Source of the DNA: Rhododendron vialii
Lineage: Eukaryota; Streptophyta; Magnoliopsida; Ericales; Ericaceae
NCBI RefSeq assembly: GCF_030253575.1
Contig: NC_080560.1
Span: forward strand, 35,639,501 to 35,703,500
DNA: 64,000 bases
Reading direction: 5' to 3'
The position numbers were made by a program, and so were the translations under genes. Position 1 is the first letter of the stretch; the number at the start of each line of letters is the position of its first letter. The notes below the pieces were generated by a model. That model had not been told where the DNA came from and ran no database searches. It saw only the letters and a list, made by a program, of their open reading frames with translations. Of this stretch, positions 14,239 through 63,638 are shown one piece after another.

Positions 14239-15557
14239 TCTCTCCCTCTATTTTTCTGGTTTGTTTTTTCTGCGATCCATATATAACATCCAAGGATCCT
14301 GAGAGTTTTGTCTGCTGATCAGTTTGAGTGCGTAGCTCAATCCGTTATTAATCCCAACAAAAAAAACCGTATGGTCAGTATGATTCAAAAAAATGAAATG
14401 TAATACAAATCTAACATTATTATGTGATTAGCGATGTCCGATTTATTTCGTTTCTAGAACATACGCAGTGTTCATGAAACAATACAAACTCAAATCACAG
14501 AGATGAATCTCTCTAACCCTACCGAACCTGTAGTGCAATCGCACAGTACGAGGATCTCTTTTCCCTTCTCTGTGGGTTTGAAAGTTTCCATGTTCAACTT
14601 GTTTTATTAATGGAAAAAACGAAATTTGCTTGTGTTTTTTAACAAGAAAGTAAAAGCTATCTAATCATATTGTGGAAACTTTATGTTCATCTTAAAATCA
14701 ATTGATAATGAGTGGAGATGTTCCAAATTATGTGCATCTCTTCCGTTCTTCGTTCAAACATGGCGGTCCAGCCCACATGTGGGATCAGTGGCTGAAATGC
14801 CTATATTCAGGTAGTGACGTGAAGACAGGGCCGGCTTTCAATAATGGACATGGGGTCCATGGAACAAATAGACTTAATGGTCCAATTTTGCTAATTTGTA
14901 AGCTCTCTCTTGGCCCACCGATTAGTTCGTGTTTTAAATCTGATCCTGAAACGCAATAAATTATGTTGATCGGATGCCGTTTATTACAATTTTGAAATGC
15001 ATTTATATTTTTTGAAAATAGAGAAACTGTAACAGTGAATCGAAATCCAGGAAGTCAATTTATGTCTAGATAAATGCATTTTGAAATTATTTCAACTAGC
15101 GTATGATCGACTTTGTTTTCGACGTTGTCAATGTTTGGAACGAGCTCTAAAAAGTGAAGGAATCGAATCAGCAAAGTTGGGTCGACCAAAAAGTATCTGC
15201 AAACATGCAAACAAAATTGAACCGTCCAGTCTATTTTCATGTTCTAGGTTCAATTGAACTAGATGGTGGGATTGGTTCTCCAGTGACTACTCAAGATGCA
15301 TGCCCTTAAGCTAATCTGGGCACTATGAGTTATGAAAAACTATGTGCAAATTCTACTGCTGAAGCCATGAAAATACAACTCGGAGGATTACACTAAAGAA
15401 CGAACGAGCGAGCACGTGTACTCATATTAGGTAAATGAGGAAAAGATAAGTAGCCAAGGTAAATGAAGCAACTCGTACAATATGTGTTTATTTCAAATCC
15501 CCTCCGTCGTTGAGAGCATGCGATCTCATTTATTCCGATACTTTTTAGTCACTTATT
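14239..15557. other. 3' flank of GSTU copy 1; no other gene
   Basis: No coding exon is recognised. On the minus strand an AATAAA lies at 15529-15534, 24-29 bases past the stop codon of GSTU copy 1; the same AATAAATGAGA context occurs past the stop codons of the other four copies and is the likely poly(A) signal. An 85-codon plus-strand open frame at 14702-14959 has no recognisable motif. Confidence 0.5.
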
Positions 15558-16682
15558 TTAAGATTTGGTAACAGGGGCCATTTTGGCACGAATTTCCTTG
15601 CTTCGCCACTGGAAATAAACAACCATCTTATCTCTCGGCGGCAACTTGTCCTTGACCACGGGGTGGTTGCGGAAATTTTCCATCCAACTGGCGGTGGCTG
15701 GGAACTGGATTGGGTCTACGATCGTCACGGATCCAATTTCCTCAAAAACAGGAAGCCAGTGAGAGATCACCCCAAGTGCAATGTCCAGGTAACCAATGCT
15801 TTCCCCTCCGAAAAACTTGCATTTCCCTTTGATCAACTCTTGCTCTATCTTCTCCAAGGACTCCAAGGCTTCTTTCAGATGCATTTCTTTGTCTTCTCCC
15901 TCGGTGCACAAAGCCCTCCATGCATTCATCCAAAACTGACACAAACAAGTCACAATAGTATTTTTTTTTATATAGAAAAGGATTCTATTAAAAAAATGGA
16001 TGGAAGCAGGGGGCAAACGCATGATTGTTACTCAACAGAACCCGAGTGGGCCCAATCACATGTATTTCTACATTAGTAACCAAAAATATAATCTATGATA
16101 TATATTGCTACTAATCACTATTTAATAATGTGCCTACGGACTACGACAAAAAATTGATTGATAACTTGAAATTTTAGTGGGGTTTTCCACACATATATAA
16201 AAACTTTATGAAATTTTCGAGAGACTTACAAGGCCGATCCTATAGAGTTTTTTCCAAATTAACTTTAAAAACTTGTTTAGTGGGAGTATTTCGCACATAA
16301 TCAGGGGATACTGATCAAAACTCAAAAGTTCAAAGCAAGGAACTAAGGAAGTAATTTGATAATCACCTTCTCCTCTGCAAATTTGGCCCAAAATCGCGCC
16401 ATGGCTCTGTCGTAAGGATCTTGAGGCAAAAGTGGAAATTGTTTCCACGTCTCATCGATGTACTCAAGAATTACGAACGACTCGGGGATCACTTTTTCTC
16501 CATGAATCAGCACTGGCACCTTCTTGTGAACTGGGTTCAGTTCCAGAAGCAGAGGACTCTTGTTAAAGAGGTCTTCTTCAATGTATTCATACTCTACGCC
16601 CTTCAGTCTCAGAGCCCACTCCACTCTAAAGGGAAATGGGCTTGCCCAGAATCCCAAAAGCTTTACTACTTCCTTGCTTTCC

Positions 16683-16684
<2 letters not shown>
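15558..16684 (-). CDS. GSTU: Tau-class glutathione S-transferase, copy 1 (intact)
   Basis: Exon 1 is 16367-16684 and exon 2 is 15558-15935. The 431-bp GT-AG intron falls between codons 106 and 107 (AEEK / FWMNAW), the usual tau-class position. The product is 231 residues. The N-terminal thioredoxin-fold domain has the catalytic Ser15 in FWASPF and the glutathione-binding set Lys42, Lys55-Val56 (HKKVPVL) and Glu68-Ser69 (PESF). The C-terminal helical domain carries [15 protein letters not shown]. Expected role: cytosolic dimeric enzyme conjugating glutathione to electrophilic xenobiotics and stress products. It differs from the other copies by Pro18 (PFPFR), LLPQDP and a shorter intron without detectable alignment to the others, so it is the most diverged member. 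Its 5' leader is a GA-rich minisatellite. Start chosen as the only ATG giving a complete first strand. Confidence 0.93.
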
Positions 16685-16895: not shown

Positions 16896-18159
16896 TGAAA
16901 GGAGTAGGAGTTTGAGTCGAACTTTGCATTCATTAGACGGCAATTTTGACCTGTTGGGTGGTTGTATCGTTCCGCTTTCTTTTTAAACTTTTTTTTATTA
17001 AAAAGAGGGTAATTTAAAATTTAAATATAATGAAAATAAAAAATAATTTTTTAATTTTGTTTGCACCGTTTAAAAGATCTCAATGAGATCTATCAAACAA
17101 GATCCATACTGATAGAAAAATTATTTGCGTAAACACATGATTTTTGAGCTTGAAATTACCTTTTTTTTCTAAAACTTTTTTTTTCTAGAAACCGAAGCGG
17201 CCACGGAGTGGATTCTCCTCCGTTTTTATTTGAACGTGGCAGTCAGATTGTGTTTTTGTAAACTTATAAGTCTGAATCTTATTTCTATTATTTATTTTTT
17301 GTAGCTTTTTGTTTCGCTTTTCGTTGTAATTTTCGAGATTAATCGTTCGTCTTGTCGAGACAAATAAGAAAAATATAAAAATATAGACCGAATTCATAAA
17401 AATTCGAATAAGACGGCCTTTTAAACAAATAGTAATAAATATCAAAAAAATTAACAAATTAGACATGAAATATGTCCTCTAAAAAATCCCTCAAACACCA
17501 AATAATTTAAATTCTCCCTTCAAATTTATGTGGTTACATGAAAAGGGAGCCGGCCTTTAATATTTTAAGTGGAACCCTAATAAGGGATTGGACCCTCTAT
17601 AGTCCCTCTGCACAGACCAATCTAATCCATTTTTAGGCTTACTAGTGGGCATATTTTCATGATCGGAGCCTTTTTCACATTTTATATCTCATCAAGATTA
17701 TTGGGCACGTCAAGAATCATATTGACCGTATATCGATTGACATATTTTTAAAGTACATTTATCTTAAAAAATGCGAGTTTTAGTCCTTCAAAGGAACTAG
17801 AGTGGATCTATTTTTGAACCCTTGCTTCTTCCCCGGCGACGAGGAGCCCCGCTCCGTTCAACAAAACTACATCCCCGCACAGATTTATTAATGGCTGGTA
17901 CCAACCGAGATGATCCGGTACCAACGGGAACATGCATGCCGGTACTCTGAAATAGATTTTGAATGGCCGGAAAGTTAGCTGGAACGGAATCAGATGACAA
18001 GAGTACCGGAATATGGCTAAAACGGGATATATTGACCAGTACAGAACAATATTAACAACCTTACTTGTATTTGGTTACAAAGGAAAAGAGTAATAAACGA
18101 AGCAACTCGTATGGGATCCTAGCATTGAATTAGGTTAGGCGCTCTCTCCCCCACACTCT
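16896..18159. other. Upstream region of GSTU copy 1 with repeat fragment
   Basis: Positions about 17035-17165 carry AAAGATCTCAATGAGATCTA, CAAGATCCATACTGATAG and GCGTAAACACATGATTTTTG, the core of the element seen complete at 25238-25476 and 54720-55362; terminal repeats are not visible here. The remainder is AT-rich without a gene. A 67-codon minus-strand frame at 17797-18000 has no recognisable motif. Confidence 0.5.
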
Positions 18160-18948: not shown

Positions 18949-20326
18949 TCAACCTTTTCTAGTAGAGGCCATTTGGGCTCCGATTTCCTTTCTTCGCCAC
19001 TGAAAATAAACAACCATCTCATCTCTCGACGGTAACTTGTCCTTGACCATGGGGTGATTGCGGAAATTCTCCGTCCAACCAGCGGTGGCTGGGAATTGGA
19101 TTGGGTCTGCGATCATCATGGACCCAACTTCCTCCAAAACAGGAAGCCAGTAGGAGATCCATCCAAGTGCAATGTCCAGATAACCAATGCTTTCCCCACC
19201 AAAAAACTTGGATTTCCTTTTGATCAACTCTTGCTCTATCTTCTCCAAGGACTCCACGGCTTGTTCCAGATACATTTCTTTGTCTTCCCCTACGGTCCAC
19301 AAAGCCCTCCATGCATTCATCCAGAACTGTCACAAACAAGTCACAAAAGTACATTTACTTCTAAAGACTTCATGCACGCGGTTTTATTTACATCTGAGAC
19401 TTAACGCATTTTGTCATCTCGCTTCCACAAACAAAAAGTTTTAGCATTTTACTATCTCGTTTTCACTAACAAAAAGTTTTTAACAACTTTTTTTTCTCAA
19501 CAACTTTTTCACTGACATATTCATCAATAACATATTTACAACCGGAAACAAATTGACGTTTCTCAACAACTTATTCACTATCGTAACACTTGACAACTTT
19601 TCAACCGAAAATATTTTTCTACAAATATTTCACTAGTGAAAACACCCCTTATTATTAGGTTGGAAACACTAATTAATTGATACATTTACTTTGGAAGTTT
19701 GGATCATAATACTAGTACATCCGCAGTTTAGTTCTCTGGTGCGCTTGGTAACGTTAATAGTTTTTTGTTTTTTTGTTTTTGTTTCCAAAGCATAAACCAG
19801 CTTTGGAATAATCTCACCAATCAATCCATAAAAATAAGCGCTTCTAAATCAATCCATCTGAAATACTACTCGAAATGGACGTCAACAAAGTGGGTAAAAT
19901 TACCGCAAAAAAAAGTGGGTGAACTTAAGTTTAAATGACAAACCAGGGATACTAATCAAAACTCAGCTAAGTTCAAAGCAAGGAACTAAGTAAGTAATTG
20001 AAAATCACCTTCTCCTCTGCAAATTTGGCCCAAAATCGCGCCATGGCTCTGTCATAAGGATCTTTAGGCAAAATCGGAAATTGTTTCCACGTCTCGTCGA
20101 TGTACTCAAGAATTATAAACGACTCAAGGATCACTTTATCTCCATGAATCAGCACTGGCACCTTCTTATGAACTGGGTTCAGTTTCAGAAGCAGGGGACT
20201 CTTGTTGAAGATGTCTTCCTCGATATATTCATACTCCACCCCCTTCAGTCTCAGTGCCCACTCCACTCTAAAGGAAAATGGGCTCACCCAGAATCCCAGT
20301 AGCTTCACTGCTTCCTTGCTTTCCAT
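18949..20326 (-). CDS. GSTU: Tau-class glutathione S-transferase, copy 2 (intact)
   Basis: Exon 1 is 20009-20326 and exon 2 is 18949-19326, with a 682-bp GT-AG phase-0 intron; the product is 231 residues. Ser15 sits in FWVSPF, with Lys42, Lys55-Val56 and Glu68-Ser69 present (HKKVPVL, LESF). The C-terminal domain includes [20 protein letters not shown] and ends ASTRKG. It is closest to copy 3 in coding, intron and upstream sequence. The intron has a single ATTATTAG at 19651-19658, the unoccupied site of the MITE present in copies 4 and 5. AATAAA on the minus strand at 18901-18906 is the likely poly(A) signal. The short (CT)n leader next to the ATG is present but small. Confidence 0.94.
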
Positions 20327-22988: not shown

Positions 22989-24491
22989 TCAACCTTTTCT
23001 AGCAGAGGCCATTTGGGCTTCTGCTTCCTTTCTTGCAAACTGATAATAAACAACCATCTCATCTCTCGGCGGTAACTTGTCCTTGACCATGGGGTGGTGG
23101 CTGAAATTCTCCGTCCAACCAGCGGTGGCTGGGAATTGGATTGGGTCTGCGATCGTCATGGACCCAACTTCCTCCAAAACAGGAAGCCAGTAGGAGATCC
23201 ATCCAAGTGCAATGTCCAGATAACCAATGCTTTCCCCACCGAAAAACTTGGATTTCCCTTTGATCAACTCTTGCTCTATCTTCTCCAAGGACTCCACGGC
23301 TTCTTTCAGATGCATTTCTCTGTCTTCCCCTACGGTCCACAAAGCCCTCCTTGCATTCCTCCAAAACTGTCACAAACAAGTCACAAAAGTACATTTACTT
23401 CTAAAGACTTTATGCGCGCGGTTTTACTTACATCCGAGACTTAACGCATTTTGTCATCTTGTTTCCAAAAACAAAAAACTTTTAGCATTTTACTATCTCG
23501 TTTCCACTGGCAAAAAGTTTTTAGCAACAACTTCTTCTCAACAATTTTTTCACTCACATACCCATCAATAACATATTTACTACCGGAAACAACTTGACGT
23601 TTTTCAACAACTTATTCACTAGTGAAAACACTCCTTATTATTAGGTTGGAAAATAACTAATTGATACATTTAATTTGGATCATAATACTAGCACATCCAC
23701 TGTTTAGTTCTCTGGTGCGCATGGTAACGTTTTTTTTTTTTTTGTTTCCGAAGCATAAACCAGCTTTGGAATAATCTCCTAACCAATCAATCCATACAAA
23801 ATAATCGCTTCTAAATCAATCAATCTGAAATACTACTTGAAATGGACGTCACCAAAGTGGCTAAAATTACCGCAAAAAAAAGTGGGTGAACTTCGGTTTA
23901 CATGACAAACCAGGGATACTAATCAAAACTTGAAGCTCTGTTTGGAACTTAGGGAAATAGGAAGAAAATGAAGGAAAGTTGAAAAAAAATTCCTTCCTTT
24001 TGCTTGGAGGTGAAGGAAAGATGAGAGAAAATAATGAATTCAAGTTTTGTGAATAGTGAAAATTTCTCTTTCATTTTCCCTCAATTTTCCTCTCATTTTC
24101 TTTCCCTCACTTTCCCTCACTTTCTCCATGTTCCAAACAAAAGCACGGAACTAAGGAAGTAATTGAAAATCACCTTCTCCTCTGCAAATTTGGCCCAAAA
24201 TCGCGCCATGGCTCTGTCATAAGGATCTTTAGGCAAAATCGGAAATTGTTTCCACGTCTCGTCGATGTACTCAAGAATTATAAACGACTCAAGGATCACT
24301 TTATCTCCATGAATCAGCACTGGCACCTTCTTGTGAACTGGGTTCAGTTTCAGAAACAGAGGACTCTTGTTGAGGATGTCTTCCTCGATATATTCATACT
24401 CGACACCCTTCAGTCTCAGTGCCCACTCCACTCTAAAGGAAAATGGGCTCACCCAGAATCCCAGAAGCTTCACTGCTTCCTTGCTTTCCAT
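22989..24491 (-). CDS. GSTU: Tau-class glutathione S-transferase, copy 3 (intact)
   Basis: Exon 1 is 24174-24491 and exon 2 is 22989-23366, with an 807-bp GT-AG phase-0 intron; the product is 231 residues. Catalytic Ser15 (FWVSPF), Lys42, Lys55-Val56 and Glu68-Ser69 are all present. Exon 2 starts [10 protein letters not shown], where the others have FWMNAW or LLENAW, and the C-terminal helix reads [12 protein letters not shown] instead of [12 protein letters not shown], a small patch of change near the end. The intron is colinear with copy 2 except for a 210-bp insertion at 23935-24144 and has the empty ATTATTAG site at 23637-23644. The (CT)n leader is adjacent to the ATG. Flanked on both sides by copies of the poly(A)-tailed repeat. 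Probably functional; expression cannot be judged. Confidence 0.94.
23935..24144. mobile_element. MITE inserted in the GSTU copy 3 intron, 210 bp
   Basis: The ends GCTCTGTTTGGAAC and GCTTTTGTTTGGAAC (right end reverse complemented) are inverted, and the element has purine-rich then pyrimidine-rich halves that can fold back. The introns of copies 1 and 2 run straight through the equivalent point (CAAAACTCA...GTTCAAAGCAAGGAAC). The target duplication is too short to read with certainty. Confidence 0.65.
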
Positions 24492-25237
24492 GAGAGAGAG
24501 AGAGAGAGAGAGAGAGATGATTTTAACTTTATTGGTAATGCATGTTGCCCGTATAAATAGCTAGCAACCCAATAATTATATTAGCCAAAAAGGAATTTGA
24601 GTCGAAATTGGCAATCTTGACTTCTTGGGTAGTTTACTAGTTTAGCAAGATTTTCTTTCTTTCTTTGTTTTTTTTTTTTTTTGCACAGCAGTACACAACA
24701 GTTAGAAGTTAGTTTGGTAGTTTGTTCAAATTCATTTGAAATTCAGTTTGATCGTATTTCATTTGTGCTTTCTCTGTGAGTTAGTTGAGATGTAAGTTTG
24801 GATTGCCAGCTCATCAATCCAAGCAGTGTACTTGTGGTCCAATTGGAGGTGTTTCATCTCGAGAGATAAATAGGGGTTTCTCTTCTCTGTAAAGACAGAA
24901 AAAAATAGTTGAGAAAATAATAGAACAAGATTCTCTCTCTCTCTCACTTCTATTTCGATTTACTGATTTTGTCAGTTAGTTGTAGTATATACTCCGTATA
25001 TATATTTGAACGTGGTAGACTGGCAGAGCAGCCAAAATGTGTGGGACCAACGTCGGCGGAATTCCGAAACCATTCTCCGTTTTTTTCTTCTTTTGAATCA
25101 CAAGTGCTGAATAGAAAAATGAGAAAATCTTTTTAATGGAGGGTTCTGTGAACAGTTGTTTATGGAGGTGAATGACAACCGTTCAAGAGTATTTTGAACG
25201 TTTTGGATGTTAATAAAACTTTTTTGGAAAAGAGTTA
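24492..25237. other. Upstream region of GSTU copy 3, with a copy-specific insertion
   Basis: Shares its flank with copy 2 except for about 24683-24975, which is absent there. That piece contains GAGATAAATAGGGGTTTCTC and a CT-rich stretch and resembles a small solo LTR, but I could not define TG/CA ends with a clean target duplication. From 24990 the shared flank resumes (TTTGAACGTGGTAGACTGG). Confidence 0.4.
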
Positions 25238-25476
25238 GACCCCGTTCCAGAAACCTTCTTAAAAAATAAATAGCTTATTTCATATTTTTAAACTAAAAAA
25301 TAATGTAAATAAAAAATAATTTTTCAATTTTTTGTGCACCGTATTAAAGATCTCAATGAGATCTATCAAACAAGATCCATAGTGATAGAAAAATTATTTG
25401 CGTAAACATATGATTTTTGAACTTGAAATTACCTACTTAAAAAATGAGTACTTATTTATCGTTCCGAAACGGAGCC
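25238..25476. mobile_element. Short PIF/Harbinger-like MITE, 239 bp
   Basis: The ends GACCCCGTTCCAGAAAC and GGCTCCGTTTCGGAAC (right end reverse complemented) are inverted. The 3-bp flanks are TTA on the left and TAA on the right, so the duplication is ambiguous. The corresponding point upstream of copy 2 is uninterrupted (AAAAAGTTTAACTCTTTT). Core text matches 17035-17165 and 54720-55362. Confidence 0.6.
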
Positions 25477-27411: not shown

Positions 27412-29818
27412 TGATGCAGTAGGTTTAAGGGTATGTATGTCTTTTTAGTCCTTTGTAATAAAGGGGTCTATAAATAGAGGTCTAGAGTGCTCATTAGGTA
27501 GCTTTTATCATTTTGAACAAATATTATCAAGAGCTAGTCTCTTTTGTATCCCATTTGGGAGTTTCTCTCTCTACATTATCTATAGGTATCTTTGGTTGCA
27601 TCACATTTGGTATCAGAGCTTCTAGGCTCGATCCCCACCGTTTATCTCGCCGGAATCCTCCCCGGAAACCTGAACCTCGCCATAAAATCTCGCCGGAACC
27701 CTAAAACGACGCCGGAAAACCTTGCCAGAGCCCCTATTCCACTCAAAACCAACAAATCTACTCAAACCTAGATCTTACATCTCGATTTGGACTCCTAAAC
27801 TTACAGAATCAACCATTTCGCAGCTGATTTTTGCTGTTTTAGGCCTCAAAACCCTATTTCGCACCATTTCGCACCTGACCCAACTCTATTTGCACTCGAT
27901 CTGCCACTTTGGGAGCTTGGAACAATGAACCATAGCTGAAAAAATGCCTCTACAGTGTTCGGAACATTGATTCGACACCAGATCTGTTTGTTTTGGACCT
28001 CACACAGTGATTTCGAGCCTACTTCAGTGATTTCAAGTCAGATCCGTGGGTTTTGAGGGTTTTCGGACTGATTTCAACCCATTTTTGCTGACTTCGGACT
28101 AGATCTATGGTGGGTAAGTGTCAAATCCTTATTTTCTTTGTTGGGTTGTTGCTAGATTGCTCCGTAGTTGTCGATTCGAGCATGATTACTGTTGATTAAG
28201 TGTTTTTGGGGTTGTTCTATTGAAATTGGTGACTGAGTTGACTGGGTTGATTTGCTTGTTTAGAGTTGATTGCTGGTGTTGTAATGGCTTATCGGGTTAA
28301 AGGTAGAAGAGGTAAAGGCTTGGGGGTAAATAATGGTGATGAAATTGATAACTTTGGCAACCAAAATCGTTGTAGGAATGAGATTGAAGAGTGTACACAA
28401 ATTGCTACCTTAAACGATAAGGTGCAATTGTTGATGTTGAAAAGACAAGTTGCTACCTTGATTACGAAGGTGCATCGTTTACTACCTCGTGGAGGTATTG
28501 ATAATTCTCAGTCAATTTAAGGCTAGTTTTAACTATAAGGAGGAAAGCAACATTGATGTTGACCTTGTTGAATCTTATGGAAAGTTTAATCTAAATGAGA
28601 TTGAAGAGGATGTTAGCCTCGATTCGGATGAGTTTGAAGGGGGGAAGGAACTTGGTTATTTCGATGATTTTCCTATCTATGATCAATATCCTAGTGAAGA
28701 CCTTAAAGGTGTTCTTCAAGATGATTGCATCTTTGAGTTTGGAGATTTCTCTATCTTTGATGAGTCTCCAAATGAAGATGATGGAGGTGAATTTGAAAGA
28801 GTTTTCATATTTGACGAGTCTTCAAAGGGGGATACTGATGTGGAAGACGTTCCCATCTATGATGAATATCCAAGTGAGGATATTGATGGTCATGAAGATG
28901 GACTTGAGAATGTTGGAAGCTCCAATGAAGAACAAGAAATGCCCATTCTTATTAGCAATGAACCTCGCTTCTTGCAATGGGACGATAGCAAACAAGTACA
29001 AGAAGGGCATGGAGCAAATGTTGCATTTTGTGTGCTACCCAAGACAAATGAGTTTGCTTTCGAAGTCCTGGCGGGTTTAGAGGACTTCATAGAGCCAAAA
29101 TTTGATGATTGTTCTCCAAACCTGTCTCTTGGATTGTCTTTGGTCCAAGATGTGCAAGTTTGTGATGTTGTGGTGCCCGAACAACTTCTAAAGTGGCCGA
29201 GAGAGAGAAGAAACGACTTGGGACATCTTGAAGATCCTTTGGGAATAATGTTCACTCAAGAAAGTCTTGGGTATGATCTTGGACATGTGGTAAAGTTGAA
29301 TTTTCTCTATGCGAAGGTTGATGATTCTTGTGATATTTTGGAACCAAGTGTAATCACCTATGTTGAGAAAGTGTTGATCCTTTAGAGGTATGGCAAGTGG
29401 GTAATTTCTTGGCACATAAGCAAGGACGCGGTGGATGTACACAAACGAAAGCTCGTATTGAAGATGGGTTATTGCATGAGGGTGACGTGAATTAAGGAAA
29501 TGCAGTCACATACCTAATTCGGAGCTGCATAATAATTAGTTTTATAGTTCTATATTTTCTTTATTTAGTTGTCTCGAGTCTTGTGTCCAACTTGAGGACA
29601 AGTTGTTTTTTTTAAGAGGGTGAGTCTGATGCAGTAAGTTTAAGAGTATGTATGTCTTTCTAGTCCTTTGTAATAGAGGGGTCTATAAATAGGAGTCTAG
29701 AGTGCTCATTAGGTAGCTTTTATCATTTTGAACAAATATTATCAAGAGCTAGTCTCTTTTGTATCCCATTTGGGAGTTTCTCTCTCTACATTATCTATGG
29801 GTATCTTTGGTTGCATCA
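27412..29818 (+). mobile_element. Short non-autonomous LTR retrotransposon, 2.4 kb
   Basis: Two 192-bp LTRs (27412-27603 and 29627-29818) begin TGATGCA and end TGCATCA, differ at about seven positions and contain TCTATAAATAG as a promoter-like box. The target duplication AATGT is perfect (27407-27411, 29819-29823). A primer-binding site TGGTATCAGAGC (27608-27619) matches initiator tRNA-Met. Upstream of the 3' LTR, ACTTGAGGACAAGTTG and a polypurine stretch AAGAGGGTGAG resemble Ty3/gypsy 3' ends. No protease, reverse transcriptase, RNase H or integrase is encoded, so it must be mobilised in trans. Confidence 0.92.
28489..29385 (+). CDS. Acidic 298-residue open frame inside the non-autonomous LTR element
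   Basis: Uncharacterised. The frame is unusually long for this AT-rich region and rich in Asp/Glu. It contains two near-repeats, DFPIYDQYPSED (about residues 60-71) and DVPIYDEYPSED, plus FDES motifs, separated by acidic linkers; the C-terminal third has LSLGLSLVQDVQVCDVVVPE. PIYDEY-type text occurs in the linker between gag and pol of some Ty3/gypsy polyproteins, so this may be a remnant of such a region; that is inference. A separate 84-codon frame (28266-28520, MAYRVKGRRGKG) overlaps its start in another phase, suggesting a frameshift in one ancestral frame. The start codon is uncertain. Confidence 0.5.
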   Translation: MEVLIILSQFKASFNYKEESNIDVDLVESYGKFNLNEIEEDVSLDSDEFEGGKELGYFDDFPIYDQYPSEDLKGVLQDDCIFEFGDFSIFDESPNEDDGGEFERVFIFDESSKGDTDVEDVPIYDEYPSEDIDGHEDGLENVGSSNEEQEMPILISNEPRFLQWDDSKQVQEGHGANVAFCVLPKTNEFAFEVLAGLEDFIEPKFDDCSPNLSLGLSLVQDVQVCDVVVPEQLLKWPRERRNDLGHLEDPLGIMFTQESLGYDLGHVVKLNFLYAKVDDSCDILEPSVITYVEKVLIL

Positions 29819-31629: not shown

Positions 31630-32034
31630 TTAGTGTGAGTTTGGCAAATCTTTCATTACAGAAATAGTTTCTATTTGGGGAATTCCATCCAACTTTTTTC
31701 CCTCCAACGCCTTTTTCATGAATTCCGGACTTTTGATGCTTGTAAAAAACTCTACTGGAAAAATCATTGGGAGGAATTGATGCTTGTAAAAAACTCTATT
31801 GGCAAAATCAGTGGGAGGAACTCCGTTTCTCTCCTTTCCCCTAGCATGCTTTAACTTTCTTTTGATTTTAGTAAAAGAAAATTGGAAAGCAATTCTTTTA
31901 GTGCGCACCTTGTGATGAGAAGATTGCCCTGACGAATGCTTCACTTCAGGTTGAGAAATACAAGCATTTGCTGGTCCAAGCTTCAAAAAGACAATCCTAT
32001 TTGATGTTTGACAATTTCCATGTCCCTTCAACAA
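31630..32034 (-). pseudogene. Possible TRM/DUF4378-type gene fragment
   Basis: A 134-codon open frame includes RIVFLKLGPANA and FSFTKIKRKLKHARGKER, which resemble the conserved LKPGP and IKRKLKHAMGKER segments of plant DUF4378 (TON1-recruiting-motif-like) proteins. Those proteins are several hundred residues long; nothing else of one is visible here. The call rests on remembered motif similarity only. Confidence 0.35.
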
Positions 32035-54394: not shown

Positions 54395-54717
54395 TGAAGA
54401 GTGCTTTGAAATTGACAGAGTATTTGATAAATATGAGCAGAATGCATTTTGCAATAAGGGTGGTGTTTGGGAGTATATGCATAATACAATCCATGAGTCT
54501 TTTGTTATTAACTATATATATAAAATGAGAAATAAAAAAGTTCATCTTATCCAAGGCCCACCCATATCCAGGGTTTTGTTTGGAGCAGCAGTCCTGGATA
54601 AGCTATCTAGGTGGGATAAGCAATCCCCGTGCAAGCGAATAATTGAACCCCAGGGATGAGGGTGTCGTTGGAGGTTTATTCTTTCCCATTTAATGGGGTA
54701 GCGAGGTAAGGGGATTT
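54395..54717. repeat. GSTU-unit flank, duplicated at 60245-60555
   Basis: Shares TTTGAAATTGA.AGAGTATT, AAGTTCATCTTATCC.AGGCC, GCAGTCCTGGATAAGCTAT and GATGAGGGTGTCGTTGGAGG with the region downstream of GSTU copy 5. It marks the 3' boundary of the duplicated unit of copies 4 and 5. Confidence 0.8.
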
Positions 54718-54719
54718 TA

Positions 54720-55362
54720 GGCTCCGTTCCAGAAACCTTTTTAAAAAATAAAAAATAAGTATTTATTTTGGAACTTCTCAAAGAAAAATAAGAAAAGTCA
54801 TTCCACAAAACCAAAATAAAAAGTTTATTTCACATTTTCAAACTCAAAAATAATGTAAATAAAAAAAATTCAATTTTTTTCGCTGTATTAAAGATCTCAA
54901 TGAGATTTATCAAACAAGATCCATATTGATAAGAAAATTATTTGCATAAGCACGTGATTTTTGAGCTTGAAATTGTCTTCTTAAAAAATAAGGAGTTGTG
55001 CTATGAGTAATGGGCGCCGGGGAGGAATATCGTACCGACGGCCTCGCCGGGCCGTCTCGGGCCACCGGACGGCCGATCCAAGCCGACCAAAAATTCTTTA
55101 AAAAAAACCGAGGGGGCTTATCATATGTACACGAAAAAGGGGTGCTCGGATCAAGCACCCTACACACTTCGGATGCCGTTGATTCCCGCGGTGGCCCCCT
55201 TGGTTTTTTTTTTTAAAATTTTTGGACGGCTCGGATCGGCCATCCGGTGGCCGGAGACGGCCCGGCACGGCCGTCGGTATGATTTCCCTCTCCGGCGCCC
55301 ATTGGTACCTATATAAATTCTGAACAAATAAGTACCTTCTTCTTATTTTTGTGGAACAAGCC
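54720..55362. mobile_element. PIF/Harbinger-like element, 643 bp, carrying a nested GC-rich MITE
   Basis: The ends GGCTCCGTTCCAGAAAC and GGCTTGTTCCACAAAAA (right end reverse complemented) are inverted, with TTA on both flanks (54717-54719, 55363-55365). Its core matches the 239-bp element at 25238-25476. The equivalent position beside GSTU copy 5 (about 60550) has no such insertion. Nested within is a GC-rich inverted repeat (about 55001-55312) with arms AATGGGCGCCGG, ACCGACGGCC and CGGATCGGCC-type text. Confidence 0.7.
55001..55312. mobile_element. GC-rich MITE nested in the Harbinger-like element
   Basis: The left arm TAATGGGCGCCGGGGAGG...CGTACCGACGGCC...GGCCGATCC is mirrored by the right arm GGATCGGCCATCC...GGCCGTCGGTATG...CTCCGGCGCCCATTGG. 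Base composition is far more GC-rich than the host element. Target duplication not resolved. Confidence 0.6.
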
Positions 55363-55700
55363 TTATTATTGAAAAAAAGAAGAAGAACTAATGGTCACTA
55401 AATATTCGAGAGACAAATTATGACAAGAGGAGCAAATAATCTGTAGAAAACCCAAACCTCAATGGAGACGAGCGTAAATAAAAGTTATCAATCTCATACC
55501 GGCAAGCATATCGTTTTTCTTGTTTTACAATAGCTAGATAATTGGTTAATTTGGTTTTGTCCAAGATATTTGTCATAAACTCTAATATGTAAGTGTCAAC
55601 TCGTAGGATACATGTTTATTTTAAATCCCCTTTGTTTCTGAGAACATACGATCTCATTTATTCTGATACATAGTTATTCAATTATTTCAAAATCTTGTAA
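55363..55700. other. 3' flank of GSTU copy 4 with remnant of the poly(A)-tailed repeat
   Basis: 55515-55600 (TTTTTCTTGTTTTACAATAG, TTTTGTCCAAGATATTTGTC) is a degraded piece of the repeat found intact next to copy 2. AATAAA on the minus strand at 55657-55662. Confidence 0.55.
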
Positions 55701-57524
55701 TCAACCTTTCCTAGCAGAGGCGATTTGGGCTCCGATTTCCTTGCTTCGCCACTGAAAACAAACGACAATCTTATCTCTCCGCGGTAACTTGTCCTTGACC
55801 GCGGGGTGGCTGCGGAAATTCTCCGTCCAACTGGCGGTGGCTGGGAATCGGGTTGGGTCTGCGATTGTCATGGACCCAACTTCCTCCCAAACGGGAAGCC
55901 AGTAAGAGATAAATCCAAGTGCAATGTCCAGATAACCAATGCTTTGCCCACCGAAAAACTTGGATTTCCCTTTGATCAACTCTTGTTCTATCTTCTCCAA
56001 GGACTCCACGGCTTGTTTCAGATACATTTCTTTTTCTTTTTCATCTCCTTGGGTGCACGTAGCCATCCATGCATTTTCCAAAAGCTGTCACAAACAAAAG
56101 TTACTGTTAAAATTGTTCAACGGAAACACCCCGCAAGAGTATATTTTACCAAAAGTGCTACACACATAACGGTTGTGGAAAACACAACACACAACCAATC
56201 TCTAGCCGTCCATTGCTGCAATACATCTGGACGATTAGAATTACGCACACAATCAACATAACGGTTGTGCAAGTAGCATTTTTGATATTTTACATAGAAA
56301 ACGAAGTACAATTATGGGAAATCTAATGTCAATACGCACAAACAGAATTGTATTTTTTTTTTTATCCGAAACAGAATTGTTGCATACCTTTCTTTTGTAC
56401 AAAATGATGGGTTTTTTAGTTCAACAGAAGTGTTAGGTACCTAGAGAAATATGTAAAGAAAAGTACCCAGAATTCACGAATGGTTTGGTGCATATTCCAC
56501 TTATGGCTCGTTTGTTAGCGGGAAAGGATTTAGAGGGGCGGAGGAGGATATAATAAGCCGGTGATAAAATGGTGGATGTATTTGGAGGGGGAATTATTTT
56601 TGAGGGAGGATATTAAAAGTTATTTGTTTTGTTTAGTTTTTTTTAGAGGGGGGTTGGAATAACGTATGTACAATACCATGAAATTCCTATTTTGGCCCCG
56701 AAGAGAAGCCCCTCATTAATTCTCAGTCGGCGGACACCATGGTGGTGTCCAAAAATAATCCCTCTCCAAGGATCCTCGGATTTCATATCCGGTGCCAAAC
56801 GAACGAAACAAACATCGGATTTCTCTCACCCGGATTTCTATATTCGAAAAAGATTTCTATATGGGTCCGGATCCTCTACAGTCCAATACTTTGGACAGGA
56901 CGAGATAGTCTAAATCAAGACTATCCATTGATATAATCAATGATTTGGATTCACTCATCAATTCTTACCAAATACATTCAAATCGTTGCATGATTGCAGC
57001 GAATGAACAGAAGAGGATCTATTTTCCTTTCTATATCCCCTTGTATATGATGCTGCCAAACAGGCCGTTAGGTGTGGTGCGGGAGAGGATCTATGTCCTT
57101 TCTTTAGATATGCATCATCAGCATAGTACTGTTGGTATTATAAACCAAAACACCAACCTGTGCGTGCCTCATCACAACAAATTGTTGTTGGTCTCTCAAT
57201 CCAAAACATCCACCCATACGAACATACAACTCGAGAGGTCCATCCACAGTTTAGTTTGAAGAACTGTCATAACAAGAATTGCAGAAATTAATGTGATTAT
57301 GAAAGCTATATTCATTTTGGGTATAGTGATCTATGACACTAAGGTTACATCATACATTTACTTCTGAATACGTTATGCGGTTTTATTTACATCTGAGACT
57401 TATTATTAGCAGTGTTCTAGAAGGCGGCCACCTAGGCCGATTAGTCCCCACCTAGGCGCTAGGCGGTGGTCCGACGCCTAAATTAGACAGCCGATTAGTC
57501 GGGCGCCTAGTCCCCGCCAAGGTG

Positions 57525-58815
57525 TAGGGCCGGCTTTGAGATTCTCGGGGCCTAAGAGGAACTTATGAGGGGAAAAAATATTCATATGGGCAAGGGAAAA
57601 AAAGGCCCTAAGACTTGAACCATGTACCGCTGTTTACATCCGTTTTTGGCACCCAGTCCTGAGCTAGCGCTGGGAGGCCATTTAATTAAAATTTAATTAA
57701 ATTGGGCCGAAAAATATATTTATTTAAACCAAAGTTAACGGGCCAAGGCAGGAATAATTAAGCCCGATTGATTTCGGTTTGATTTTGGACTTGAGTTTGA
57801 GAGTTTTGGGCCTATTTGCAGTAAGAATTCAGTTAGTTCATGACTTATTTAAGTTTGTTAAGTGTTAGTGTGGGCTAAATATGTTAGCAGGCTATTTAAT
57901 TTAATTTAATTTAATTTAATGGCCCATTACCTAAATGGCCCACGAAAAGTGGAAGGAGGAGAAATGTTTGTTACCTGGCAAGAGGCCATTTGACTCGGTC
58001 AAATGGCTGGTAGTTGCTAATGACCCACGAAAAGAGGGTACAGGTGGACTATTATCTTGCCCAACTGCCCATGATGGAGAATTAACGTATTGGTAATTGG
58101 TAGTTACTTCCAATAATTCCCCATAATAAGGAAAAACACATGGGCAATATGTGTGTAACTTCTGGTAATTACCCACGATCCCATGATTCCATTAAGTGGA
58201 AGTTATGAAGGACACATGGCGCCACGGGAGGAAGACAACAAGGCCCTTGCATGTAGATAACTGAACACCCTTGCCTATAAAGAGTAGTTCACAAGATGAA
58301 AAAAGGGTCAACACACCAATCAAGCTCAACGCTTAAATCAAAGCCTTCCCAGCGAAGCAATTATCTCATTTCTATCTCTCTTGTACCTCAACTTTATTAT
58401 TACGATATAATAAAGTTATTCTACGTTGCTACTTCTTTTCCTACACGGTTAGAAAATTATTAAGTCCTCGCTCGTAGAACCAAAACCACGAACCAACACT
58501 GCAATCCGGCCCTTAGGTTTGCAGCACTTTCACCCTCACGGTTAAGAAGTCAGAAAAGGGACACTCAGTCCTTTACGTTAGACACGACAAATCCTGGCAC
58601 GCCCGCTCAGTCCTTGAGCCATTTCGGAGCTGAAACAACCGCTCAAATAAAGGAACTAAACTTTTCCACTAAGCTAGCTAGCTTATTTGTCATATAAGTG
58701 CTAAATTAAATATATATTACATATCTGGCTATACCTATCTGGGGCCTTAGTTTTGATTCAAAATTCGGGGGCCTAATTCCGCCGCCTTGTTTGCCTTGGC
58801 TCAGAGCCGGCCCTG
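57525..58815. mobile_element. Second hAT-type MITE nested in the first (interrupted)
   Basis: The ends TAGGGCCGGCTTTGAG and CAGGGCCGGCTCTGAG (right end reverse complemented) are inverted, with an 8-bp duplication CCAAGGTG (57517-57524) and CCGAGGTG (58816-58823), one mismatch. About 279 bp once the LTR and its duplication are removed. Confidence 0.85.
57631..58637 (+). mobile_element. Solo LTR, 1007 bp, nested in the inner MITE
   Basis: Starts TGTTTACATCCG and ends GGAGCTGAAACA, flanked by a perfect 5-bp duplication ACCGC (57626-57630, 58638-58642). Promoter-like CCTATAAAGAG lies near 58275 and GATATAATAAAG near 58405. Copy 5 carries the unoccupied site in the same MITE (CATGTACACCTTAGATAAAGG, about 62690-62710), colinear base for base with the reconstructed pre-insertion site. 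No internal retrotransposon sequence remains, as expected after LTR-LTR recombination. Confidence 0.9.
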
Positions 58816-59567
58816 CCGAGGTGCTAGTCGGCGCCTAGGCGCTAGGCACCTTTTTTCTGCCCAACTAATGTCTAGCGATTTTTAGAACATTGATTATTAG
58901 GTTGGAAAAGAACAAATGGATCCATTTACTTTGTATCATAATACGAGTACATCCATAGTTTAGTTCACCGGTGCGCTTGGTAACGTTAATAGTTTTTTGC
59001 TTTTTTATTTCCGAAGCATAAACCAGCTTTGGCATAATCTCCTAACCAATCAATCCATACAAATTTAGCGCTTCTAATTCAGTCCTTCTGAAGAACGACT
59101 CGAAATGGATGTCGCCAAAGTGGGTAAAATTACCGCACAAAAAAATAGGTCAACAAGTTTACCATGAGAAACAGGGGATACTGAGAATCACTATGATCAA
59201 AACTCAAAAGTTCAAATTAAGCAAGGAACTAAGGGAGTAATTGATAATCACCTTCTCCTCTGCAAATTTGGCCCAAAATCGCGCCATGGCTCTGTCATAA
59301 GGATCTCGGGGCAGGATCGGAAATTGCTTCCAAGTCTCATCGATGTACTCAAGAATCACAAGGGACTCGAGTATCACTTTTTCTCCATGAATCAGCACTG
59401 GCACCTTCTTGCGAATCGGGTTCAGCTCCAGAAGCATAGGACTCTTGTTGAAGATATCTTCCTCGATGTATTCATACTCCACACCCTTCAGTCTCAGTGC
59501 CCACTCCACTCTAACGGAAAATGGGCTCGCCTAGAATCCAAGAAGCTTCACTGCTTCCTTGCTTTCC

Positions 59568-59569
<2 letters not shown>

Positions 59570-59603
<34 letters not shown>

Positions 59604-60807
59604 TGGATTTGTGGCAAGGTATGGTTTGCCCGTATAAATAGCCAGCAACCCAATTAGCCAAAAAGGAATTTGAGTCGAACTTGGCGATCTTTTGGCCGGC
59701 AATCTGAGAAAATACTTATTTTTTAAATTAATGGTAATAAATTATAAGAGAAAGATCTGTCTTATAAAATAAATAATAAATATTTAAAAAATAATAAGTT
59801 TAGCGGAACGAAGCATGATTAGATTTTCTTTTTGATTATACATGGTAGTCCAGCCAAAATGTGTGGGACCAACATCGGCGGACTTTCCGCAACCATTGTC
59901 TATTTTTTTTCTTTTTTAAATTATAAGCATGGAATAGAAAAATACAAGTATTTGAATCCACAACTTTCCAGGATTCCTAAAATCAGTGGATTGCGTCCTC
60001 CCACTGCCGTGCGCACGTGTAACGACTAGGGTTTTAAGAGAGAGAGAGAGTGTGTGTGCGCGCGCGTGCGCACGTGTTTGGGCTTCAAATTCAAGAATGA
60101 AGAATCTGAGTAAAAAAGAAACCAATTAATAAAAAACAAACCTCACTTTTTTCCAAAAGTTGCAAACTTGCAATAACTATAGGGGTGTTTTTGGAAGTCC
60201 AAATTTTTGGCTTTGTGCATTTTACTTATTGATTTTTTAGATTATGGTCAGAATGTGTTTTGAAATTGATAGAGTATTCGATAAATATGTGCAGAATGCA
60301 TTTTCCTATAGGAATGGTGTTCGAGAGATATATGCATAATACAATCCCTGAGTCTTTTTGTCAACTAAAATGAGAAATAAAAAAGTTCATCTTATCCGAG
60401 GCCCACCCATATCCAGGGTTTTGTTGGGAGCAGCAGTCCTGGATAAGCTATCCAGGTGGGATAAGCAATCCCCGTGCAAGGGAATAATTGAAACCCAGGG
60501 ATGAGGGTGTCGTTGGAGGTTATTCTTTCCCATTTAATGGGGTAGAGACGCAAGGGAACTAACGGTCACTACATATTCGATAGACAAATTACTACAAGAG
60601 GAGCAAATAATATGTAGTAAACCCAAACCTCAATGGATACGAGTGTAAATCAAAATTATCAATTCCGTTTTCTCATTTTACAATAACTAGACAATTGGTT
60701 AATTTGGTTTTGTCCAAGATATTTATTTTAAATCCCCTCTGTTTCTGAGAACATACGATCTCATTTATTCTGATACATAGTTATTCAATTATTTCAAAAT
60801 CTTATAA
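59570..60807. other. Upstream region of GSTU copy 4 and 3' flank of copy 5
   Basis: A (TG)n(AG)n microsatellite at 59569-59602 abuts the lost start codon. 59640-59830 matches 63725-63910 upstream of copy 5. 60108-60255 matches 26838-26949. 60245-60555 matches 54395-54717. 60665-60725 is a remnant of the poly(A)-tailed repeat, and AATAAA on the minus strand lies at 60764-60769. No other gene. Confidence 0.6.

Positions 60808-63638
<2,831 letters not shown>

Follow-up and report, generated by a model that had tools for sequence, protein, structure and literature searches.

Transposable elements that are nested in a readable order within tandemly duplicated plant genes are already known, as maize p1 attests (PMC2686159), and the derivation of temporal order from nested repeats is automated in REANNOTATE (PMC2672092). 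For rice, PMC4423477 treats excision with filler DNA as a known type of event, and its table gives Mutator-type MITEs 9-bp duplications and ends starting with GAG. Here we describe a nest of this kind in a tandem array of tau-class glutathione transferase (GSTU) genes, within a window of 64,000 nucleotides of Rhododendron vialii DNA (the whole stretch that was analysed; GC content 37.5%). A search of the open-licence literature for the locus itself gave no title on it among the matches listed, and a report may exist; a search of paper text for four of the element end sequences gave no plant-transposon title of this kind among the matches listed.

We consider the following history, taken as a whole, highly probable. 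The GSTU array would have grown through tandem duplication, and on the branch leading to copies 4 and 5 an hAT-type MITE would have entered the single intron at ATTATTAG. A second hAT-type MITE would then have entered the first, an order deduced from the nesting, and the gene would afterwards have duplicated into copies 4 and 5. Later, copy 4 alone would have received an LTR retrotransposon, which would have landed in its inner MITE and presumably recombined to a solo LTR; this copy would meanwhile have lost its start codon and gained a stop. Near the insertion site, a segment of 190-244 bp between two CTTA repeats would have been lost in copies 4 and 5 or gained in copies 2 and 3.

The window holds five tandem tau-class genes, all on the minus strand and with one intron apiece (Table 1). 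The frames of copies 1, 2, 3 and 5 are open, and copy 4 is indeed the pseudogene that it had been called, its start codon having changed from ATG to ACG and its codon 13 from TGG to TAG. The protein of copy 5, the only one scanned, matched the GST_N and GST_C domains of Pfam (PF02798, 6.4e-20; PF00043, 1.2e-4), and its best PDB matches include chains named tau-class or GSTU; Pfam matches were absent from two other open reading frames, at 28489-29382 (+) and 31633-32034 (-). Nothing in this evidence shows that the elements serve the gene in any way: copy 5, whose intron contains both MITEs, keeps an open reading frame and GT/AG splice ends.

Table 1. Positions of the gene parts, elements and insertion sites in the window
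Feature	Positions	Strand	Remarks
Copy 1 exon 1	16367-16684	-	
Copy 2 site	19404-19658		244-bp segment 19404-19647, then ATTATTAG at 19651-19658 (CTTATTATTAGG from 19648)
Copy 2 exon 1	20009-20326	-	
Copy 3 site	23444-23644		190-bp segment 23444-23633, then ATTATTAG at 23637-23644
Copy 3 exon 1	24174-24491	-	
Copy 4 exon 2	55701-56084	-	
Copy 4 intron	56085-59251		
Copy 4 fourth insertion, MITE-like	56150-56284		135 bp; 9-bp duplication ATATTTTAC; absent from copy 5
Copy 4 outer element, left target-site duplication	57402-57409		ATTATTAG
Copy 4 outer element, putative hAT-type MITE	57410-58892		184 bp of its own after subtraction of the inner element and one duplication
Copy 4 inner element, putative hAT-type MITE	57525-58815		279 bp without the LTR and one ACCGC
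Copy 4 LTR, left duplication	57626-57630		ACCGC
Copy 4 solo-LTR-like insert	57631-58637	+	1007 bp, TGTT...AACA; one TATAAA at 58276, one AATAAA at 58409
Copy 4 LTR, right duplication	58638-58642		ACCGC
Copy 4 outer element, right target-site duplication	58893-58900		ATTATTAG
Copy 4 exon 1	59252-59569	-	start lost, codon 13 a stop
Copy 5 exon 2	60808-61185	-	
Copy 5 intron	61186-63320		2135 bp
Copy 5 site	62479-62939		outer element 62487-62931 (own sequence 155 bp), holding the inner element and lacking the LTR
Copy 5 inner element	62591-62872		282 bp, LTR-free
Copy 5 exon 1	63321-63638	-	open

The three-level nest that a preliminary description had reported in the intron of copy 4 is real, nearly as claimed there, and lies where it had been placed. 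The introns of copies 4 and 5 were aligned over 1858 shared columns at 91.8% identity, with a largest gap of 1012 bp, and their inner elements are nearly equal in length once the LTR is subtracted. The boundaries given in Table 1 rest mainly on the duplications, on the agreement between copies 4 and 5 and on the gap in copy 5, and to a lesser degree on the outer inverted repeat. In copy 4 as in copy 5 (62479-62486 and 62932-62939), ATTATTAG flanks the outer element on both sides, so that its 8-bp duplication matches at 8/8 positions in both, as had been described; in a chance control, 9 of 135,485 8-mer pairs between the flanks were identical. It begins with CAGTGTTCTA and ends with TAGAACATTG in copy 4. 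Inverted repeats were tested with 1000 shuffles per element: the outer pair of copy 4 (CAGTGTTCTA/CAATGTTCTA) was equalled by 17/1000 shuffles and that of copy 5 by 42/1000, and because the LTR, used as a control, scored 40/1000, the outer inverted repeat is not decisive on its own. Its assignment as a putative hAT-type MITE draws on the 8-bp duplication together with the CA ends. The difference in own length between the two outer elements arises via gaps of 11 and 18 bp that flank the inner element.

The inner element begins with TAGGGCCGGCTTTGAG and terminates in the reverse complement of CAGGGCCGGCTCTGAG, the two ends in copy 4 being TAGGGCCGGCTTTGAG and CTCAGAGCCGGCCCTG. Its presence within the first element stood up as described, whereas its 8-bp duplication is imperfect, at 7/8 in both copies (CCAAGGTG/CCGAGGTG in copy 4, CCTAGGTG/CCTAGGCG in copy 5). 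Between the arms of the outer element, which is rich in CCTAGGCG-like repeats, 34 of 7,560 8-mer pairs matched at 7/8 or better by chance. The terminal inverted repeats match at 14/15 positions in copy 4, where 1/1000 shuffles did as well, and are decayed in copy 5 (118/1000). In both copies the right end starts with CA and the left end with TA; a single C to T change before copies 4 and 5 split would explain the latter. The 18-bp gap in copy 5 adjoins the right duplication of the inner element, so the CCTAGGCG found there may be a fused repeat unit.

Inside the inner MITE lies the solo-LTR-like insert with its 5-bp duplication, as the preliminary description had it: the insert runs from TGTTTACATCCG to GCTGAAACA (TG...CA) and has ACCGC on either side. 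In the chance control, 37 of 17,748 pairs of 5-mers taken from the two arms of the inner element were identical. The copy 5 site is likewise uninterrupted, since the gap against copy 4 measures exactly 1012 bp, the insert plus one duplication. This target is conserved in length (CATGTACACCTTAG against CATGTACCGCTCAA with the LTR removed), with ACACC in place of ACCGC (3/5 matching). LTR elements are not known to depart by clean excision; for this reason, and because the copy 5 site has kept its length, the placement of the LTR insertion after the split of copies 4 and 5 is well supported. A different kind of insertion with TG...CA ends by chance would fit the finding of a single LTR copy by BLAST in the window, where neither a paired LTR nor an internal retroelement region was seen. 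Its 5-bp duplication and TGTT...AACA ends argue against such an insertion, as do a TATAAA and an AATAAA in that order and the absence of the terminal direct repeats that mark a TRIM, and we regard it as very unlikely. The absence of those repeats also led us to reject a TRIM identity for the insert, and we retain the solo LTR as its probable identity.

For none of the three elements did BLAST find a second independent copy in the window, the MITEs occurring in copies 4 and 5 only. The motif CAGGGCC has three sites outside the nest, and CAGTGTT has six that lie outside both the nest and the LTR; compared over 40-41 bases each (about 500 at 14826), none continues as the inner or outer element beyond the first bases. 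At 14826-14838 (CAGGGCCGGCTTT), about 12 bases resemble the end of the inner element and are followed by divergent sequence. The outer end pattern had 0 matches in viral contigs, a longer inner pattern had 0 in prokaryote genome contigs, and the 17 stretches of viral contigs that fit the 16-base inner end pattern were regarded as chance. The statement that all ancestral states are preserved did not hold: the states seen are the unfilled site with an extra segment (copies 2 and 3), outer plus inner element (copy 5) and outer plus inner element plus LTR (copy 4). The outer element by itself is seen in none of the copies in the window, so the order of outer before inner rests on nesting.

Copies 2 and 3 had been described as having a single ATTATTAG and no MITE. 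Each has one ATTATTAG (from 19651 and 23637) and no element, but the site is not clean, being non-colinear on its left side. On the right, homology with copy 4 begins exactly at ATTATTAG (58893 = 19651, 23637). On the left, it ends at 57402 (= 19403, 23443) in a BLAST match of 54 columns (copy 2: 85%, E 1.7e-10; copy 3: 83%, E 2e-9), on which the left anchor rests, the global aligner not having recovered it. A global alignment of the copy 2 and copy 5 introns with the nested block omitted, in which the segment was paired with unrelated DNA, was set aside for the anchor. Where copies 4 and 5 read GAGACTTATTATTAG unbroken, copies 2 and 3 have GAGACTTA, ending at 19403 and 23443, and then, beyond the segment, CTTATTATTAGG, beginning at 19648 and 23634. 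In this CTTATTATTAGG the letters CTT of the left flank directly precede ATTATTAG, the arrangement expected of an unfilled site.

The segments of copies 2 and 3 are akin (89% over 178 bp, with one 55-bp gap); as they are related, the segment difference is older than the split of copies 2 and 3. CTTA stands at both ends of the segment, which suggests either that copies 4 and 5 underwent a deletion between short repeats or that copies 2 and 3 received a CTTA-duplicating insertion, the deletion being slightly favoured. Inverted ends were absent from the segments (657 and 293 of 1000 shuffles did as well), and a MITE identity was rejected on that ground. Copy 1 has no usable site, copies 1 and 2 agreeing at 214 of 418 aligned intron columns. 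Two further differences were noted in these introns. Compared with copies 2 and 3, copies 4 and 5 carry some 1.2 kb of additional sequence that separates exon 2 from the left flank (56098-57352), with no clear end duplication by eye. Against copy 2, the copy 3 intron has a 198-bp insert at an alignment gap (23934-24131; ends by eye GCTCTGTTTGGAAC and GTTCCAAACAAAAGC), which may be Tourist-like.

That the MITEs arrived before the split of copies 4 and 5 and after their separation from copies 2 and 3 is the likeliest reading; it is not, as had been proposed, read directly, since 244 or 190 bp interrupt the site on its left in copies 2 and 3. Alternatively, the ancestor of copies 2-5 might already have had the outer MITE, either empty or containing the inner one, and the lineage of copies 2 and 3 might have lost it by an excision that left 190-244 bp of filler and removed part of the left duplication. 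Unrelated DNA directly adjoins the site in these copies, and rice offers a precedent, with 94 putative excisions, of which 8 were perfect, 58 had filler and 43 had flank deletions (PMC4423477). The filler reported there is, however, shorter, at 1-123 bp (PMC4423477), and CTT is kept directly before ATTATTAG in copies 2 and 3, which filler would match by chance about 1 time in 64 for three bases (a plain estimate); on these two grounds excision with filler is less likely. MITE sequence is moreover absent from the segment, and relatives of the segment were found in the window only in copies 2 and 3 (BLAST, E up to 0.01). We therefore give this excision little credence and prefer insertion of both MITEs in the line that led to copies 4 and 5.

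The branching order of the genes, previously read off the insertions, was recovered from the exons, the tree of which groups copies 4 and 5 (100/100) and copies 2 and 3 (99.5/100). In coding sequence, copies 4 and 5 show 27/693 differences and copies 2 and 3 show 31/693, as against 77 to 83/693 for comparisons across the two pairs. A four-taxon tree of the intron right of the nest also set copies 4 and 5 apart from copies 2 and 3 (support 100), with 12/348 differences between copies 4 and 5 as against 53/333 to 72/331 between either of them and copies 2 and 3. These trees are unrooted, and a root between copies 4 and 5 is unlikely because the distance between the two is short. Given the exon and right-flank trees, the branching order holds independently of the transposons.

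Tandem copies often undergo gene conversion, and if copies 4 and 5 had come to share the MITEs in this way after their split, the shared insertions would not date it. Divergence between the two copies is indeed uneven, the 12/348 of the right flank standing beside 83/1052 left of the MITE. The MITE block (57402-58900 and 62479-62939), however, is more diverged than the remaining intron (57/458 against 95/1400 columns, p = 2.5e-4), which speaks against a recent conversion of the block, and exons and right flank yield identical grouping; we consider sharing by conversion highly improbable and take the MITEs to predate the split. Transitions make up 47 of the 57 differences in MITE columns against 52 of the 95 elsewhere in the intron (p = 4.6e-4). 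In the MITEs and the remaining intron alike, CpG columns change faster, and outside CpG, too, the MITEs are the faster-changing part. Methylation of transposon DNA would account for faster, transition-rich change. We tentatively suggest, with some doubt, that the MITE block is a putative methylated island in a possibly working gene (copy 5) and that since the split of copies 4 and 5 it may have changed almost twice as fast as the surrounding intron, mostly by transitions. If this is true, paired duplicates of this type could serve to measure mutation linked to transposons inside a single intron. With a plant rate near 6.5e-9 per site per year, the intron divergence of 6.8% would place the split roughly 5 million years ago, with large uncertainty, and the LTR insertion is younger than the split.

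Copies 4 and 5 differ in further insertions. The 135-bp element at 56150-56284 in the copy 4 intron has inverted ends CAAAAGTGCTAC/CAAAAATGCTAC that no shuffle equalled (0/1000), and copy 5 carries ATATTTTAC once, at 61242. The aligner gives a net gap of 138 here and not 144, since an additional 6 bases are present in copy 5 immediately past the site. The element carries the 9-bp duplication of Mutator-type elements, but its ends start with CAA, not GAG, and it may be called Mutator-like only by the length of its duplication. Downstream of copy 4, a 673-bp block (54712-55384) is absent at 60555 in copy 5, through gain in copy 4 or loss in copy 5. It contains a fold-back of about 295 bp (55009-55303, 74% self-complementary) within a repeat related to 25235-25448 and 17013-17165, and is possibly a second nest; no clean duplication was seen in the comparison with copy 5. 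Copy 4 has thus received at least two insertions after the split, perhaps more. Conversely, copy 4 lacks a 210-bp stretch of copy 5 (61582-61791) that contains long runs of (CT)n and (AT)n.

The initial observation is correct and careful, and what it describes is ordinary; two of its points, the ancestral states and the empty site, were overstated. The locus is a compact worked example in which gene duplications are ordered by nested insertions and an independent tree serves as a check. It also shows a limit, in that a single copy of the duplication does not guarantee a colinear 'empty site', and only a base-level comparison of both flanks brings this to light. The general picture of plant genomes is unchanged.

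The elements resemble the non-autonomous hAT elements in the table of PMC4423477 in their 8-bp duplications and in their ends starting with CA, the left end of the inner element excepted; neither a transposase nor a named family could be assigned to them. As in REANNOTATE (PMC2672092), a contained element is taken as the younger one, and here paralogous copies also check some of the steps independently. The maize p1/p2 cluster (PMC2686159) is alike in being a tandemly duplicated plant gene with nested elements, one of them now a solo LTR, in taking order from nesting, and in having an hAT-like insertion in only some of the repeats. It differs in that LTR elements there were dated in years, whereas the MITEs and solo LTR here give order only, and in that here sister gene copies provide the element-free sites (PMC2686159).
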